Assembly (NCBI RefSeq): GCF_000447295.1
Contig: NZ_KE650771.1
Coordinates: forward strand, 2,374,469-2,438,468
Reading direction: 5' to 3'
From: Fischerella sp. PCC 9431
GTDB lineage: Bacteria > Cyanobacteriota > Cyanobacteriia > Cyanobacteriales > Nostocaceae
DNA: 64,000 bases
The notes beneath the pieces are model-generated. The model saw nothing but the letters and a program-made list of their open reading frames with translations. It was not told the DNA's origin and did no database searches. This document shows, piece after piece, positions 9,413 through 64,000 of the stretch. A program made the translations under genes and the position numbers. Within the stretch, counting starts at the first letter, position 1, and every line of letters begins with the position of its first letter.

Positions 9413-10288
9413 TCAGTCGTGAACATTGCCATCGGGCATGATCGCACCACTGAGGTTAGCACCAATCAGTTTTACAAGTAAGCGATCGCCAGAACGAACA
9501 CGCGCTCCTGTCAAGTCAGCACCGCGCAAATCAGCACCACTCAAGTCAGCACCAATCAAGTTAGCATTCCGGAGGTTGGCTTCTCGCAAATCTGCCAAAA
9601 GTAAGTTGGCTCTAAACAAATTGGCTTCAGATAAATCCGCACCTCTGAGGATGACTTTATGCATAAAAGTATCACTAAGATTAGCACCACTCAAGTTGGC
9701 GTAACTCATGTTTCTGCTGGATAAGTCTTTATTGCTTAAGTTAGCGCTGCTAAAATCTTGACCACTCAAGTCTGGGTTTTGCTTGGGTGGTTCGTAGTTT
9801 GGTGATTGAGGATTGGTTGAAGTATAGGTAGTTTTTGTTTCTGGCTTTTTCGGTGAGGGTGGTGATTGATCAGATTGGTGAGATTGATGTGTTTGATGAG
9901 ATTGATGAGATTGTTGAGATTGTTGAGATTGGTGAGATTGGTGAGATTGATTAGGTGAATAGGATTGATGGGTTTGATGGGTTTGATGGGTTTGATGGGT
10001 TTGATAAGTTTGATGAGTTTGACGGGGTTGACGGGGTTGACGGGGTTGATAGGAGTGATGAGAATGATGGGGAATTTGATGCTTGGTTTTGAGAGAGCGT
10101 AATTGTTCTCTAGCCTCGTTAAGTTGTTGTAACTTTTTTAGCGCCTTGTCTCTTAGACGCTGGTTATCTAAAGGTATGCGATCGGGATGCCAAATAAAAG
10201 CCAAATCTTTGTAAGCCTGGTTCACTTCCTCTAAAGTTGCTCCAGGCTCCAACTCTAATACCCGATAATACCGCTCCAGCTCTCTCAT
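9413..10288 (-). CDS. J-domain protein with His/Gln/Ser/Thr linker and pentapeptide repeats
   Basis: 291 aa in three parts. Residues ~1-66 form a J domain (YYRVLELEPGATLEEVNQAY, with HPD in WHPDR). Residues ~70-160 are a low-complexity linker built from HQ(T/S) tripeptides, encoded by a 9-bp-type DNA repeat (9880-10040). Residues ~175-285 hold A(D/N)LxxA pentapeptide repeats such as ANLSG and ADLRE. J domains recruit DnaK. Pentapeptide repeats form a right-handed beta helix used for protein contacts. The linker length probably varies between strains because its DNA repeats can slip. Specific partners are unknown. Confidence 0.85.
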   Translation of the reverse strand: MRELERYYRVLELEPGATLEEVNQAYKDLAFIWHPDRIPLDNQRLRDKALKKLQQLNEAREQLRSLKTKHQIPHHSHHSYQPRQPRQPRQTHQTYQTHQTHQTHQTHQSYSPNQSHQSHQSQQSQQSHQSHQTHQSHQSDQSPPSPKKPETKTTYTSTNPQSPNYEPPKQNPDLSGQDFSSANLSNKDLSSRNMSYANLSGANLSDTFMHKVILRGADLSEANLFRANLLLADLREANLRNANLIGADLSGADLRGADLTGARVRSGDRLLVKLIGANLSGAIMPDGNVHD

Positions 10289-11341: not shown

Positions 11342-11754
11342 AATAGTTAGTTTTTGGTTGTTTTTGGCTATTAATTATTTCGCTCTACTAGCTACTGTTT
11401 ACATCAAAAGCCTTGCAATCGTATCCATCATCAATTATCACCATTAACTACTAATTATTAACCATTTAATATAGCTAATTGCTGTTAAGATATGTTGGCA
11501 CATTAACACAAGCATCTTTATTGATCAGAGGGATATGTATAATAACAATTTGCTTAACATGTAAATCAAGATGTAGTCTTAAATCCCTGCTTTGTAATGA
11601 GTCTATCGTTTTTTTGAGAATTGTGGGGTCTTCTACTTTATTCTCTACATTTGACTTACATAGCTAAAAAAATAGATATTCTATACTTCTCTATTCTCAC
11701 TTTCTCTCTCAATATTTGCATTTTCTTATACTTCTGACTTTTTCCCCAAAGGTA
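11342..11754. other. Intergenic region before the aroF leader
   Basis: About 410 bp of AT-rich sequence separating the membrane-protein gene from the aroF promoter. No convincing coding sequence or structured element is seen. Confidence 0.4.
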
Positions 11755-11783
11755 TTGACTATACTCAAATCGTCTGTTATGTT
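11755..11783 (+). promoter_or_regulatory. Sigma-70-type promoter for the aroF leader
   Basis: The -35 box TTGACT (11755-11760) and -10 box TATGTT (11778-11783) are separated by exactly 17 nt. The predicted start near 11790 leaves about 40 nt before the first leader-peptide ATG. The call rests on the match to consensus and on its position ahead of the attenuators. Confidence 0.7.
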
Positions 11784-11830
11784 CTTGGATATAGGTCTAA
11801 ATTAATTTTTTCAAGAAAGCACCTCGCGTT

Positions 11831-11887
11831 ATGTTTAGCAATAACTTCTACTTTTACTATTGGTTTAGGGTGGTTCACCGGGAGTGA
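11831..11887 (+). CDS. Aromatic leader peptide 1 of aroF (18 aa)
   Basis: The ORF reads MFSNNFYFYYWFRVVHRE and stops with TGA. Seven consecutive codons (11846-11866) encode Phe, Tyr, Phe, Tyr, Tyr, Trp, Phe, with another Phe at codon 2. Such a run is expected only in a ribosome-stalling leader that senses charged tRNAs for aromatic amino acids. It is followed at once by a two-state hairpin set and a terminator (11872-11951), and the target downstream is DAHP synthase. The ribosome-binding site is weak (AAGAAAG-like, about 12 nt upstream). The peptide itself probably has no function after translation. Confidence 0.85.
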   Translation: MFSNNFYFYYWFRVVHRE

Positions 11888-11951
11888 ATTAAGTTTCCTC
11901 ATGGAAACCGCCCGGTGAACCGCAGAGCGAACTCTGCGGTTTTTGTTTTTT
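11872..11951 (+). terminator. Attenuator 1: antiterminator and intrinsic terminator
   Basis: Arm 1, GGTTCACCGGG (11872-11882), overlaps the last codons of leader 1 and pairs perfectly with CCCGGTGAACC (11911-11921). A terminator follows: AACCGCAGAG (11918-11927), loop CGAA, CTCTGCGGTT, ending in a T-rich run to 11951. The two structures share AACC (11918-11921), so forming arm 1:2 weakens the terminator. A ribosome at the leader stop (11885) would cover arm 1 and let the terminator form. Stalling on the aromatic codons would leave arm 1 free. Confidence 0.8.
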
Positions 11952-11969
11952 AAGGAGAATTCCATCGTC

Positions 11970-12029
11970 ATGACTTACTTCGGTAGCTGGTTTTACTTTT
12001 ATTTTTGGCCCAGAATAAGTTCCGGGTAA
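11970..12029 (+). CDS. Aromatic leader peptide 2 of aroF (19 aa)
   Basis: The ORF reads MTYFGSWFYFYFWPRISSG and ends with TAA. It has seven consecutive aromatic codons (11988-12008: Trp, Phe, Tyr, Phe, Tyr, Phe, Trp) after an earlier Tyr-Phe pair. A ribosome-binding site AAGGAG lies at 11952-11957, right after terminator 1. Leader 2 is thus reached only by transcripts that read through the first attenuator. The two peptides share their design but not their sequence. That suggests either an old duplication under selection for aromatic content only, or independent origin. Confidence 0.88.
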   Translation: MTYFGSWFYFYFWPRISSG

Positions 12030-12091
12030 AGTGTCATGTCGATGAAACGTCAGCACCCGGAACTTAACCAAGGTTCCGGGTTTTTTGTTTT
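12017..12091 (+). terminator. Attenuator 2: mutually exclusive antiterminator and terminator
   Basis: Arm 1, AAGTTCCGGGT (12017-12027), overlaps the last codons of leader 2. It pairs perfectly with arm 2, ACCCGGAACTT (12055-12065). Arm 2 also forms the 5' side of the terminator: CCCGGAAC (12056-12063) with GTTCCGGG (12073-12080), followed by TTTTTTGTTTT. The structures exclude each other. A ribosome that finishes the leader masks arm 1, giving termination. A ribosome stalled in the aromatic run frees arm 1, giving read-through into aroF. Confidence 0.88.
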
Positions 12092-12165
12092 CTGTTGTTT
12101 GTTGTTTAGAACAACCATCAACCATTCACTACCACCATTATTCTATTTTTAAGGAGAATAAAAAG

Positions 12166-13041
12166 ATGATCAATGCCAAATTAGCAGTCAAACCTCATCC
12201 CCAGCACCAAAGCATTGTGAAAATTTCCGAAACAGTTGCTTTTGGTGGTCAGGAAGTAGTAATCATTGGGGGACCTTGCACAGTTGAAAGCGCCGAACAA
12301 ATGGAGATTGTCGCCCACAAGCTATCTACTGCATCTGTACAAGCATTGCGTGGCGGTGTCTACAAACCCCGCACTTCTCCCTACGCTTTTCAGGGGATGG
12401 GAGAGGAGGGACTAAAAATTTTAGCAGGAGTCCGATCGCATTACAATCTCCCAGTTGTCACCGAAGTCATGTCAATTTCTCAAATCGAAGCGATCGCCAC
12501 CCACGTTGATATGCTACAAGTAGGTAGCCGCAATATGCAAAACTTTGATTTACTCAAAGCCTTGGGAAAAGCCGGTAAACCCATTCTCCTCAAACGTGGT
12601 TTAGCTGCAACCATTGAAGAATTTGTCATGGCAGCCGAATATATTTTAAGTCACGGCAACCCAGATGTTGTGCTGTGTGAACGCGGTATCCGCAGTTTCG
12701 ATAACTATACGCGCAACGTCTTGGATTTAGCAGCAGTAGCAGCACTCAAGCAAATTACCCACTTACCCGTGATTGTAGATCCTTCCCATGCAGTCGGTAA
12801 ACGGGAATTAGTCGCACCCGTCGCCAAAGCTGCTGTTGCTTGTGGTGCAGATGGTTTAATTATTGAATGTCACCCAGAACCAGAAAAATCTGTTTCCGAC
12901 GCCCGTCAAGCTTTGTCTTTAGAAGAGATGGCGGATTTAGTTGAAAGTTTAAAACCAGTAGCAGCAGCAGTTGGCAGAAAAATATCAGAAGAATTGGGGG
13001 TAGGTTTAGCACCTACCCCTCTTTCTTTATCTGCGGCTTAG
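12166..13041 (+). CDS. aroF: 3-deoxy-7-phosphoheptulonate (DAHP) synthase, type I-beta
   Basis: 291 aa enzyme joining phosphoenolpyruvate and erythrose 4-phosphate, the first step of the shikimate pathway to Phe, Tyr and Trp. Motifs: [51 protein letters not shown] and [14 protein letters not shown]. The protein has the I-beta/KDO8P-synthase-like core without an N-terminal ACT-like regulatory domain. Feedback inhibition through such a domain is therefore not expected, which fits regulation by attenuation. I use the ATG at 12166, preceded by AAGGAG at 12151. The same frame is open upstream to 12085, but that stretch overlaps the second terminator. The gene is monocistronic as seen here. Confidence 0.95.
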
Positions 13042-13062
13042 ATTTCAGCTGATTTTGAATCG

Positions 13063-13202
13063 AGACGCGATAAATCAAGACGCGATGAATCAAGACGCGA
13101 TGAATCAAAACGCGATGAATCAAAACGCGATGAATCAAAACGCGATGAATCAAGACGCGATAAATCAAAACGCGATAAATCAAGACGCGATTCATCGCGT
13201 CT
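13063..13202. repeat. 15-bp tandem array grown from a dispersed palindrome
   Basis: Eight full units of A(G/A)ACGCGAT(G/A)AATCA lie at 13063-13182. A ninth half-unit then closes as the hairpin AGACGCGA-TTCA-TCGCGTCT (13183-13202). The hairpin is the same GACGCGAT...ATCGCGTC palindrome found at 19935, 21849 and 56340 and elsewhere. The array looks like amplification of its left arm. It lies just after aroF and may act as its terminator. Confidence 0.85.
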
Positions 13203-13482: not shown

Positions 13483-14844
13483 ATGAGTTATGAACATGAC
13501 ATATTTATCAGTCACGCAAGTGAAGATAAATATTTTGTCAGACCACTAGCTGAGAAATTGCAAAACAAAGGGTATCGTGTTTGGTATGATGAATTTTCTT
13601 TGACAGTAGGAGACAACTTAAGTGAGTCAATTAATAAAGGACTCTCAGAATCCAGGTTTGGAATAATTGTCATCAGCCCTAATTTCATGAGCAAGTCATG
13701 GCCAAAGTCTGAGTTAGAAGGGCTTGTGCAGAAGGAAATAAACTTTGGAAAAGTAATACTGCCAATTTGGCATAATGTTTCATATCAGAAAGTTTTTGAA
13801 TTTTCTCCTATTATTGCTGGCAAACTTGCATCCAATACTTCCAAAGGGCTTAATAAAGTTGTTGAGGATATTATTGCAGCACTTATAAAAGCAGGCGTAA
13901 AAAGTAATTATATAAATAAGCCACAAGAAAATCCTTCCTTAGAATTGCCAACATTTGATTTCCAAACAGTGAAATTATCTGTACAAAGGGATTCTTCTGG
14001 AAAATCTATAATTAAAAGTAATTCTTACAACAATAAAGCTAGTTATTTTGTAGAGGATTTGGGGTTTGGTGTCAAACTAGAGATGGTTGAGATTCCTGGT
14101 GGTACATTTTTGATGGGCGCTTATGAGAATGAGGAAAAAAGCAGGGATTCTGAACGCCCCGTACATCATGTAACAGTCTCAACCTTCTTTATGGGGAAAT
14201 ATGCCATCACTCAAGAACAATGGGATAGAGTTGTCAATTCTTGTCCTCCAGTCAATAGAGAGTTAAAACCCAGACCATCTCGCTTCAAGGGTAATGACCG
14301 TCTTCCTGTAGAGTGTGTTTCTTGGTATGATGCAGTAGAATTTTGCGCTAGGTTTTCCCAAATAACAGGTCGTAATTATCGACTACCCAGTGAAGCAGAA
14401 TGGGAATATGCATGTCGTGCAGGTACGACGACTCCTTTTTACTTTGGCGATACAATCACAGATCAGGTAGCAAATTATGATGCTACCTATATTTACGGTA
14501 ACGGTTCCAAGGGAAATTTTAGAGAGCAAACAACGCCAGTAGGAAGCTTTCCGCCCAATTATTTTGGACTTTACGATATGCACGGAAACTTATTGGAATG
14601 GTGTCTCGACGATTGGCATCATAACTATGAAGGTGCGCCTACAGATGGTATTCCTTGGTTTGATAATAATGATGATCTTTGTCAAAAACAAGGAAATGCC
14701 TTACTGCGGGGCGGTTCCTGGGTCAATATTCCTGAAGGCTGTCGTTCGACGTCCCGTTACGATAACGTTAGGGCGGAGCGCGGCAACCTCGACAATCTTT
14801 TTGGTTTTCGTGTTGTCTGTGGGATCGAGAGGTCTTTTTTGTAG
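13483..14844 (+). CDS. TIR domain - FGE/SUMF1 (C-type-lectin-fold) fusion; probable DGR variable protein
   Basis: 453 aa. An N-terminal TIR domain (about 1-140) contains HDIFISHASEDK, YRVWYDEFSLTVGDNL and ISPNFMSKSWPKSEL. The conserved Glu of NAD-hydrolysing TIRs would lie in the SWPKSELEGL segment. A linker leads to a formylglycine-generating-enzyme-like domain (about 195-450): EMVEIPGGTFLMG, RLPSEAEWEYACRAGT, DMHGNLLEWC. The end, LLRGGSWVN...GFRVVC, matches the variable tip of cyanobacterial diversity-generating-retroelement targets (14701-14820). TIR fusions commonly act in signalling or antiviral immunity, so a diversified sensor driving a TIR effector is a reasonable inference. No reverse transcriptase or template repeat is in the window. 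Confidence 0.88.
   Translation: MSYEHDIFISHASEDKYFVRPLAEKLQNKGYRVWYDEFSLTVGDNLSESINKGLSESRFGIIVISPNFMSKSWPKSELEGLVQKEINFGKVILPIWHNVSYQKVFEFSPIIAGKLASNTSKGLNKVVEDIIAALIKAGVKSNYINKPQENPSLELPTFDFQTVKLSVQRDSSGKSIIKSNSYNNKASYFVEDLGFGVKLEMVEIPGGTFLMGAYENEEKSRDSERPVHHVTVSTFFMGKYAITQEQWDRVVNSCPPVNRELKPRPSRFKGNDRLPVECVSWYDAVEFCARFSQITGRNYRLPSEAEWEYACRAGTTTPFYFGDTITDQVANYDATYIYGNGSKGNFREQTTPVGSFPPNYFGLYDMHGNLLEWCLDDWHHNYEGAPTDGIPWFDNNDDLCQKQGNALLRGGSWVNIPEGCRSTSRYDNVRAERGNLDNLFGFRVVCGIERSFL
14701..14820 (+). other. Candidate DGR variable region (VR)
   Basis: Within the FGE domain, codons at positions that usually vary are all of the form NNY: GTC, AAT, ATT, GGC, TCC, TAC, GAT, AAC, GTT, GGC, AAC, CTC, GAC, AAT and CTT. 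This is what adenine mutagenesis of AAY template codons yields. They alternate with fixed blocks (GGCGGTTCCTGG, TGTCGTTCG, AGGGCGGAGCGC, GGTTTTCGTGTTGTCTGT). A hairpin TCCGCC-TGAC-GGCGGA follows at 14894-14909, either a terminator or the DNA hairpin often found 3' of DGR targets. The call rests on pattern only. Confidence 0.6.
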
Positions 14845-35494: not shown

Positions 35495-35683
35495 CTACCA
35501 ACCAACTCTGACATCTTGGATAATAATTGACTTGTTATAAAGTTGCAGAATAATCAGCAGAAACACGAAAAACAGGCCCATAAAAACAGCCATCACAGGG
35601 GTAGTACCCCAACCTGGGGCAACTTTACCGTATTCAGAGTTCAAGGGTCTGAGGATATCTCCTAACCGCGTCCGTTGTGCCAT
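35495..35683 (-). CDS. psbH: Photosystem II protein H
   Basis: 62 aa single-helix subunit of photosystem [28 protein letters not shown] is the conserved stromal N-terminus, the membrane helix spans about 29-49, and the end is [13 protein letters not shown]. The cyanobacterial form lacks the plant phosphorylated Thr extension. It stabilises bicarbonate and QB binding near CP47. It is divergent from psbN (86 bp between starts), as in other cyanobacteria. Confidence 0.97.
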
Positions 35684-62631: not shown

Positions 62632-64000
62632 CTAGTCAAGGTCGTTCATGAACAATACTGGTTCAGTTTCACGGTCAATACCTTTCTCGAAACCACCAGC
62701 AGCAGCACGGGCGCGACCAGCGTGCCATAAGTGACCGACTAAGAAGAAGAAAGCTAATACGAAGTGAGATGTTGCCAACCAAGCGCGGGGGTTGACGTAG
62801 TTAAAGGAGTTAGGCTCGGTAATAACCCCACCCACGGAATTGATAGAACCGTTGGGAGCGTGGGTCATGTACTCAGATGCACGACGAATTTGCCAAGGTT
62901 GTACGTCGTTTTTGATCTTGTCGAGATCCAAACCGTTAGGACCACGTAGAGGCTCTAACCAAGGACCACGGAAATCCCAGAAGCGCATGGTTTCACCACC
63001 GAAGATGATTTCACCAGAAGGAGAGCGCATCAGGTATTTACCTAGACCGGTAGGACCTTGAGCGGATGCAACGTTAGCACCGAGTTTTTGGTCACGAACC
63101 AAGAAGATGAAGGATTGAGCTTGAGATGCTTCAGCGTTGGTTGGGCCATAGAACTCGCTAGGATAAGCGGTGTTGTTGAACCAAACAAAGCAAGAAGCGA
63201 TGAAGCCCATGAGGGACAAAGCGCCCAAGCTGTAGGAAAGATAAGCCTCACCAGACCAGATGAAAGCGCGACGCGCCCAACCAAAAGGCTTGGTGAAAAT
63301 ATGCCAGATACCACCAGCAATACAAATCAAACCGATCCAGATGTGACCACCGATGATGTCTTCCATGTTGTCAACACCAACGATCCAGCCTTCGCCACCA
63401 AAGGGAGAGCTAGCCAGATAGCCGAAGATCACAGCTGGGTTCAATGTTGGGTTGGTAATCACACGAACATCACCACCACCGGGCGCCCAGGTATCATAGA
63501 CACCACCGAAGAACATTGCTTTCAGCACCAACAATAAAGCACCAACTCCTAAAAGAATTAGGTGGAAGCCGATGATGTTGGTCATCTTGTTCTTGTCTTT
63601 CCAGTCGTAACCAAAGAAAGAGGAGTACTCTTCTAATACTTCTGGACCACGGATTGCGTGATAGATTCCGCCAAAACCTAAAACGGCAGAGGAAATCAAG
63701 TGTAGTACACCGACTACAAAATAGGGATAGGTGTCTATAATTTCACCACCAGCGCCAACTCCCCATCCAAGAGTTGCCAAGTGAGGTAGTAGGATAAAAC
63801 CTTGTTCGTACAAAGGCTTTTCAGGGACAAAGTGAGCGACCTCGAATAAGGTCATTGCACCAGCCCAGAAGACGATCAAACCGGCGTGAGCAACGTGTGC
63901 GCCCAGTAATTTACCGGAGAGGTTAATGAGACGGGCGTTACCAGCCCACCAGGCAAATCCGGTGGTGTCTTGGTCACGTCCACCTCCCAAAACGCTAGGT
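62632..64000 (-). CDS. psbC: Photosystem II CP43 chlorophyll protein (5' end outside window)
   Basis: About 456 residues are visible, open to the right edge; upstream residues read [18 protein letters not shown], so only the short N-terminus is missing. Six membrane helices with chlorophyll His ligands ([54 protein letters not shown]). The large lumenal loop has [20 protein letters not shown]; its Glu and the Arg after it contact the Mn4CaO5 cluster. The end VLFMNDLD differs slightly from the common VLSMPDLD. psbD is expected just beyond 64000, overlapping as usual. Confidence 0.97.

Follow-up and report, generated by a model that had tools for sequence, protein, structure and literature searches.

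Two leader peptides rich in aromatic codons, arranged in tandem upstream of aroF, suggest serial transcription attenuation in cyanobacteria

The aroF gene for DAHP synthase in the window analysed here (a stretch of 64,000 nucleotides from a cyanobacterial genome of 7.17 Mb) is preceded by two complete leader-peptide gates, each composed of a short ORF with a run of aromatic codons, an antiterminator and an intrinsic terminator. We consider it very probable that these act as two ribosome-mediated transcription attenuators in series, which would control aroF through the supply of aromatic aminoacyl-tRNAs. At the level of the sequence, comparison with related genomes establishes the ORFs, the pairing arms and the terminators, shows that they are conserved and covary, and links them to this aroF, and constrained folding supports the assignment of which ribosome stall opens which gate.

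Organization of the aroF leader

The elements of the leader, with the evidence for each one in brackets, are the following.

11755-11783, plus strand: promoter, sigma-70-like, TTGACT, 17 nt and TATGTT, with an extended -10 TG (9 of 12 matches)
11831-11887, plus strand: leader peptide 1 (LP1), MFSNNFYFYYWFRVVHRE followed by a stop codon, without a Shine-Dalgarno sequence (aromatic run at 11846-11866)
11870-11882, plus strand: antiterminator 1 arm A1, GTGGTTCACCGGG, within the final LP1 codons (pairing and covariation)
11893-11908, plus strand: small hairpin between the LP1 stop and arm B1, GTTTCC-TCAT-GGAAAC (fold)
11911-11923, plus strand: antiterminator 1 arm B1, CCCGGTGAACCGC, sharing 7 nt with the 5' arm of terminator 1 (pairing)
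11917-11951, plus strand: intrinsic terminator 1, stem-loop 11917-11942 and U tract (terminator scan; pairing in the alignment)
11952-11957, plus strand: Shine-Dalgarno sequence of LP2, AAGGAG, immediately 3' of the terminator 1 U tract (sequence)
11963-12044, plus strand: possible start:spacer helix, 11963-11974 with 12033-12044 (fold)
11970-12029, plus strand: leader peptide 2 (LP2), MTYFGSWFYFYFWPRISSG followed by a stop codon (aromatic run at 11988-12008)
12017-12027, plus strand: antiterminator 2 arm A2, AAGTTCCGGGT, within the final LP2 codons (pairing and covariation)
12055-12065, plus strand: arm B2, ACCCGGAACTT, whose partner is either A2 (antiterminator) or 12071-12081 (terminator) (pairing)
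12055-12090, plus strand: intrinsic terminator 2, stem-loop 12055-12081 and U tract (terminator scan; covariation)
12166-13041, plus strand: aroF, DAHP synthase of 291 aa without PF18152, with the Shine-Dalgarno sequence AAGGAG at 12151-12156 (sequence, Pfam)

The seven consecutive aromatic codons read F-Y-F-Y-Y-W-F in LP1 and W-F-Y-F-Y-F-W in LP2; as all three aromatic residues are encoded in each run, the two gates would be expected to sense the same signals. In each gate, an antiterminator pairing of 11 to 13 bp joins the last codons of the leader to the 5' arm of the terminator and competes with the latter, the two terminator stem-loops having 11 bp each before their U tracts; arm B2 corresponds to the entire 5' arm of terminator 2. 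The initial annotation of this DNA had described two leader ORFs with seven aromatic codons each, both with an antiterminator and a terminator, in front of aroF, and this layout was confirmed from the sequence. The pairing that it had placed over the end of LP1 corresponds to A1 with B1, and the separate ribosome-binding site that it had proposed for LP2 is the AAGGAG listed above.

Within a 2.1-kb region, five terminator-like sites were detected on both strands, compared to 1.6 ± 1.2 in shuffled sequences, and the leader folded better than 100 out of 100 shuffles (z = -6.16). Among the ORFs of 8 to 40 aa on both strands of the 64-kb window, LP1 and LP2 were the only ones with aromatic residues at 7/7 codons, and one further small ORF reached 6/7. 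Ten 64-kb first-order Markov controls contained one 7/7 ORF in total, with zero or one ORF of at least 6/7 in each.

A promoter in front of both leaders had been claimed as well. The match taken alone stands at chance level in the window (5 promoter-type matches against an expectation of 4.9); comparable sites nevertheless precede most LP1s: the best site upstream of 141 LP1s scored at least 9 in 114 of them, compared to 15/141 after letter shuffling, and in 98 of these 114 sites the -35 element was located 71-90 nt 5' of LP1. TTGAC and TGnTA were prominent in an alignment of 67 rows, with some of these (L148 and L149, for example) lacking them. As one conserved promoter site was found, a single transcript is proposed. 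Regarding translation, the LP1 of the window is without a recognisable Shine-Dalgarno sequence, as are 141 of 142 LP1s overall, and therefore LP1 translation must be SD-independent. SD-like motifs were detected upstream of 80 of 147 LP2 rows, two of which are misassigned LP1s, and an SD was present at 142 of 152 aroF starts.

Other features were noted in the window. A 15-bp repeat, TGAATCAAGACGCGA, is present in nine copies directly 3' of aroF (13056-13191), and the protein encoded downstream of this gene (13483-14844) carries a TIR domain in fusion with an FGE-sulfatase domain. On the minus strand, 9413-10288 encodes a DnaJ-domain protein with pentapeptide repeats, whose coding region contains a 9-bp repeat array (9864-10069). 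Rfam models detected an IsrR antisense RNA at 63417-63603 (178 bits) and, as a borderline match, the Plastid-psbN 5' UTR model at 35582-35642 (51.3 vs. a cut-off of 50).

Conservation of the tandem leader in cyanobacteria

A protein scan with AroF across 84,980 species, with one genome per species, gave 507 relatives, the best 80 of which, where named, belonged mostly to Nostoc and other filamentous cyanobacteria. In the order of the host, this AroF type was found in 63 of 195 sampled genomes, at 67-100% identity and with a clear gap to the paralogs (around 50%), and at least one leader was present in all 63. Seven genomes from four families outside this order had both leaders.

For the comparison of upstream regions, 160 loci were reduced to 157 distinct sequences after removal of three duplicates, and to 151 usable ones after leaving out the paralogs L002 and L003, three loci with less than 300 nt upstream (L016, L023 and L051) and one that read as N. 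Both leaders were present in 144 of these 151 regions, 139 being called by script and five (L025, L092, L137, L152 and L155) by eye, with a median distance from LP1 to LP2 of 141 nt (132-240, n = 139). The remaining seven had one leader, which was LP2 in six (L081, L119, L124, L127, L141 and L144) and LP1 in one (L140). Conservation of the aromatic runs and stems in related genomes had been set beforehand as a point on which the proposal could fail; both were found to be conserved. The single-gate genomes of families f8, f9 and f29 have family mates with both gates, and the simplest reading of this distribution would be that the tandem is ancestral and that single gates represent losses. Individual leaders deviate from the common form: the LP2 of L155 lacks the usual stop and that of L081 the usual start codon, whereas in L092 and L137 LP1 retains its aromatic run with a stop codon placed before arm A1. 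These last two LP1s constitute a natural test of the ribosome travel needed for masking arm A1.

The core columns of the LP1 run were aromatic in 137, 138, 141, 140 and 142 of 142 rows, and those of LP2 in 132, 136, 128, 137, 140, 133 and 140 of the 140 rows that could be anchored; a single Gly/Ser column, aromatic in 21/140, interrupts the LP2 run in the alignment. Where a codon differed from the commonest one it was still aromatic in 94 of 106 cases in LP1 (four columns) and in 183 of 217 in LP2 (six columns), the rows being related in both, compared to two aromatic outcomes among the nine single changes of TTT or TAT. The LP1 codons located 5' of the run were far more variable than the run itself. 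The comparative data argue that the aromatic codons, as well as the stems analysed below, are under selection.

Covariation of the antiterminator and terminator stems

A scan of the 90 nt following the LP stop codon detected a terminator in 128 of 142 LP1 regions and in 117 of 147 LP2 regions (absent in 14 and 30, respectively). The antiterminator pairing was found in 127/128 and 108/117 of these, compared to 0.20 and 0.15 when the arm region was shuffled. Two alignments were prepared, A1 with 61 of 68 diverse LP1 regions (from 128 usable) and A3 with 50 of 58 diverse LP2 regions (from 117 usable, including the two misassigned LP1s), and the rows left out by hand were mostly divergent or of unusual length. 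Without hand selection, the antiterminator counts led to the same conclusion, both for LP1 (68 and 128 rows) and for LP2 (56 and 115 rows).

In the diverse subset, antiterminator 1 was paired in 94.9% of the cells, with 6 of its 11 pairs covarying and 26 cells changed on both sides, compared to 4.3 in shuffles; for all 128 usable rows these values were 96.0% and 47 vs. 6.8. Antiterminator 2 was paired in 93.2% of the cells in the diverse subset (24 double-sided cells vs. 7.4) and in 90.7% over 115 rows (36 vs. 13.8). Its number of pair types was not above that of the shuffles (314 of 500 were as high), and sliding the partner by +2 gave 22 double-sided cells with 26% pairing. Terminator 1 was paired in 99.8% of the cells and is mostly invariant, which makes covariation little informative there, and terminator 2 was paired in 94.1%, with double-sided changes in 22 cells (7.3 in shuffles). 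The small hairpin at 11893-11908 had 82.9% paired cells and 14 double-sided changes (vs. 6.0), and the start:spacer helix of gate 2 had 64.4% paired cells and 41 double-sided changes (vs. 27.8), with 61.3% pairing when slid by -3.

The antiterminator counts refer to structures named by us and not to structures chosen by RNAalifold. When applied to alignment A1, RNAalifold did not choose the antiterminator but drew the terminator plus a short local hairpin over arm A1, with one covarying pair. This is expected if the two states alternate, yet it provides no independent support for the antiterminator.

Folding of the leaders with a masking ribosome

Each leader was folded with a ribosome-sized mask, using a transcript ending at arm B as the co-transcriptional case and P > 0.5 as the threshold. 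The gate 1 antiterminator formed in 125 of 128 leaders without a ribosome, in 127-128 of 128 when the ribosome was stalled at one of aromatic codons 1 to 4, in 109/128 with a stall on the fifth and in 20/107 with a stall on the sixth, where the ribosome already masks arm A1. For gate 2 the antiterminator formed in 68 of 115 leaders without a ribosome and in 109 of 115 when a ribosome was placed at the start; stalls at codons 1 to 4 gave 97-106 leaders, and a stall on the seventh 53/110. With the ribosome at the stop codon no leader formed it (0/128 for gate 1, 0/115 for gate 2), with the same result for three footprint edges. When the ribosome was stalled at the earliest codon for the residue in short supply (Phe, Tyr or Trp), both gates opened in most leaders, although the Trp stall was weaker in gate 1 (mean of 0.59-0.87 depending on the footprint edge). 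The earlier proposal that the switch responds to any aromatic shortage is in agreement with these data, the evidence for it being the codon make-up and the constrained folding.

When the full-length leaders were considered at equilibrium, the terminator probability increased by more than 0.5 from the first-codon stall to the stop codon in 71 of 128 gate 1 leaders and in 38 of 115 gate 2 leaders. In gate 1 of the window the increase was only from 0.45 to 0.73, and gate 2 mostly favoured the terminator even with a stall (means of 0.68-0.97). The folding of both states, which the initial annotation had suggested as a check, gave a clear co-transcriptional switch but a weaker one at full-length equilibrium, and the model therefore depends on the antiterminator forming ahead of the terminator.

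The trp attenuator closes when its leader is not translated. Unlike it, gate 1 has no evident device with this function: no protector pairing of the 1:2 type was apparent, the antiterminator being formed in the 125 of 128 untranslated leaders mentioned above, and the gate looks open in these folds. For gate 2, the start:spacer helix could possibly shut the gate when LP2 is untranslated, as weakly suggested by the fold, by the double-sided changes described above and by the lower antiterminator count without a ribosome than with one at the start.

Association of the leader with a single aroF type

Two covariance models, R1 from alignment A4 (46 rows) and R2 from alignment A5 (41 rows), were used to score first-look candidates (150 in the genome of the window and, under strict filters, 13 from each genome of the phylum), a scope within which weak gates elsewhere may be missed. 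In its own genome, R1 matched LP1 and, weakly, LP2 (E = 0.008), which leaves a duplication origin of the gates possible, and R2 matched LP2 only. Across 292 genomes of the phylum, R1 had matches in 29, with 28 of them upstream of this aroF (positions compared by eye) and the 29th, L190 (G094), beside a decayed aroF. Matches of R2 were found in 32, 28 of them upstream of this aroF; the other four were weak matches (E about 5e-4) in small genomes of a distant family and were rejected, L219 and L220 having no aromatic leader at the match. An aroF ortholog was detected in 29 of the 292 genomes at the cut-off used, 27 being matched by both models, one by R1 only and one by R2 only. At least 14 of the 29 R1-positive genomes and at least 9 of the 28 ortholog R2-positive genomes had contributed training rows, and therefore the weight of this result rests on the absence of matches elsewhere.

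In L190, an LP1-like ORF occupies 1489-1545 of the reversed locus and the neighbouring gene, compared by eye, is the neighbour found in the window. From its sequence context, we read this LP1 gate as a relic of the system after gene loss. In the genome of the window, the paralogs L002 and L003 had neither an aromatic leader nor a match to R1 or R2, and no convincing leader of this kind was found before the trpE-like genes or pheA. A short ORF with some aromatic codons, MIVRRLKFFWKLY (L224:1379-1420), is located around 70 nt before the pheA-like gene of this genome, but is too weak for a leader peptide.

By Pfam, AroF has the DAHP synthase domain PF00793 and is without the ferredoxin-like regulatory domain PF18152, in accordance with the earlier remark that the enzyme lacks an obvious regulatory domain. 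Its closest solved sequence is 1vs1, a DAHP synthase of 276 residues, and we take the aroF product to be a class I-beta DAHP synthase. PF18152 is present in paralog L003 and absent in paralog L002, which adjoins a trpE-like gene. The suggestion that the leader replaces allosteric control is favoured by the absence of PF18152 from AroF, but the link is not one-to-one, as L002 is also without this domain and yet has no leader. It is plausible, as judged from domain content, that attenuation stands in for allostery in this AroF. In Chlorogloeopsis, three DAHP synthase homologs have been described to differ in their response to UV (PMC7693272).

Proposed mechanism and alternative explanations

According to the proposed model, one transcript would start near 11790, both peptides would be translated from it and the signal sensed would probably be the charging of tRNA-Phe, tRNA-Tyr and tRNA-Trp. 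With a full supply of charged aromatic tRNAs, the ribosome would reach the LP1 stop codon and cover arm A1, leaving arm B1 to terminator 1, so that the RNA polymerase would halt near 11950. Under a shortage of Phe, Tyr or Trp, a ribosome stalled in the LP1 aromatic run would leave arm A1 free, and A1:B1 would form before the 3' arm of terminator 1 exists, allowing the polymerase to continue. A second, identical test would take place at LP2, with A2:B2 competing with terminator 2 and an end near 12090, in such a way that aroF would be reached only by the RNAs that pass both gates. From this series wiring it would follow, as had been proposed, that the two gates multiply repression; gate 2 might also shut if LP2 is untranslated, as modelled from its fold.

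Taken together, these elements could form an ancient double lock, a reading that we put forward tentatively and hold as a little less probable than not. The lock would be an AND gate in series with unequal weights for the same three amino acids. Gate 1 would meet Tyr and Phe first, respond less well to Trp and stay open when untranslated, whereas gate 2 would usually meet Trp first and tend to close when untranslated, and together they would distinguish aromatic starvation from a general translational failure and would take the place of allosteric control in an enzyme without the regulatory domain.

Other explanations have to be weighed against serial attenuation. The leader peptides could be small trans-acting proteins and the hairpins ordinary terminators of two tiny transcription units, as the position of the LP2 Shine-Dalgarno directly after terminator 1 would allow and as the trans-acting trp leader peptide peTrpL of Sinorhizobium exemplifies (PMC7298713). 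However, the variability of the LP1 codons before the aromatic run, the covariation of the A arms with B arms that lie beyond the ORF and the tie of the leader pair to one gene argue against this, and we regard it as very unlikely. A metabolite riboswitch or a T-box, with the aromatic ORFs as incidental, appears less probable still: any type of attenuator would account for a pair of mutually exclusive stems upstream of a biosynthetic gene, but no Rfam family reached its gathering score here (the best match of the Rfam covariance models in 11700-12170 had 19.7 bits vs. a gathering score of 55), the parts conserved by eye are the aromatic codons, the arms and the terminators, with lower conservation elsewhere, and an aromatic run precedes each of two different stem sequences.

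That only one gate is regulatory at present, the other being a relic read through by the polymerase, would fit with the seven single-gate versions among 151 and with the weakness of the gate 2 antiterminator at equilibrium. Nonetheless, we consider this unlikely, because the other 144 regions keep both gates and the aromatic codons, antiterminator and terminator of each one are supported separately. Finally, the two minus-strand ORFs that overlap the leader, 11777-11971 and 11889-12125, are open and have ATG starts, but it is hardly conceivable that they are real genes: of 139 regions, one had an antisense ORF with an ATG start and 70 aa or more spanning the leader, on which basis the longer ORF was rejected as a gene, the other one having 64 aa.

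Comparison with known systems

Serial ribosome-mediated attenuation of aroF has partial precedents. Leader-peptide attenuation of aroF is in itself not new, being known from Corynebacterium and predicted in Acholeplasma. The initial annotation knew of no tandem Phe+Tyr+Trp pair on aroF in cyanobacteria, and in the open-access literature searched here no report of such an element in cyanobacteria was found. A term search in the main text of a genome-wide terminator survey (PMC2965389) gave no hits for cyanobacteria, aroF or aromatic. Three aspects of the aroF leader appear to be new: two gates for the same signal conserved in tandem, their occurrence in cyanobacteria, and their association with a DAHP synthase that has no ferredoxin-like domain. 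As many cyanobacterial families retain two same-signal gates side by side, the question of why two are placed in series becomes testable, with the single-gate relatives as controls. If the model is true, ribosome-mediated attenuation would extend to oxygenic phototrophs; it points to transcript-level control of the entry into the shikimate pathway, of relevance for engineering aromatic products in cyanobacteria.

The classical leader-peptide attenuators are those of E. coli trp, pheA and pheST (PMC11802643), which share with the aroF leader an ORF with control codons, mutually exclusive antiterminator and terminator, and a terminator placed before the biosynthetic gene. Unlike them, the leader described here is cyanobacterial and has two full gates in series, with the three aromatic residues mixed in each one. 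The aroR-aroF system of Corynebacterium glutamicum also has a leader peptide with aromatic codons upstream of a DAHP synthase gene, but with one gate and a Phe-Tyr-Phe sequence only, and is described as responding to limitation of Phe and not of Tyr (PMC11802643, PMC4046766). In Acholeplasma, the predicted uORFC-13-1 combines a uORF with Phe codons and a terminator upstream of aroF, though as one gate, listed with 24 representatives from Acholeplasma and environmental sequences only (PMC8632094).

Amino acid attenuators are normally single, according to the report on the Salmonella mgtCBR operon, whose tandem attenuators mgtM and mgtP sense two signals, ATP and proline tRNA, and were presented by its authors as a singular case of attenuators in tandem that answer to different signals (PMC3641672). 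Both leaders have two short ORFs with an attenuation-like switch each, and one of the mgtCBR gates senses charged proline tRNA. In contrast to what is expected for the aroF leader, the mgtCBR gates sense different signals and the gene controlled is not biosynthetic for the amino acid sensed (PMC3641672), whereas the comparative sequence data presented here argue that the aroF leader is a deeply conserved same-signal tandem attenuator.
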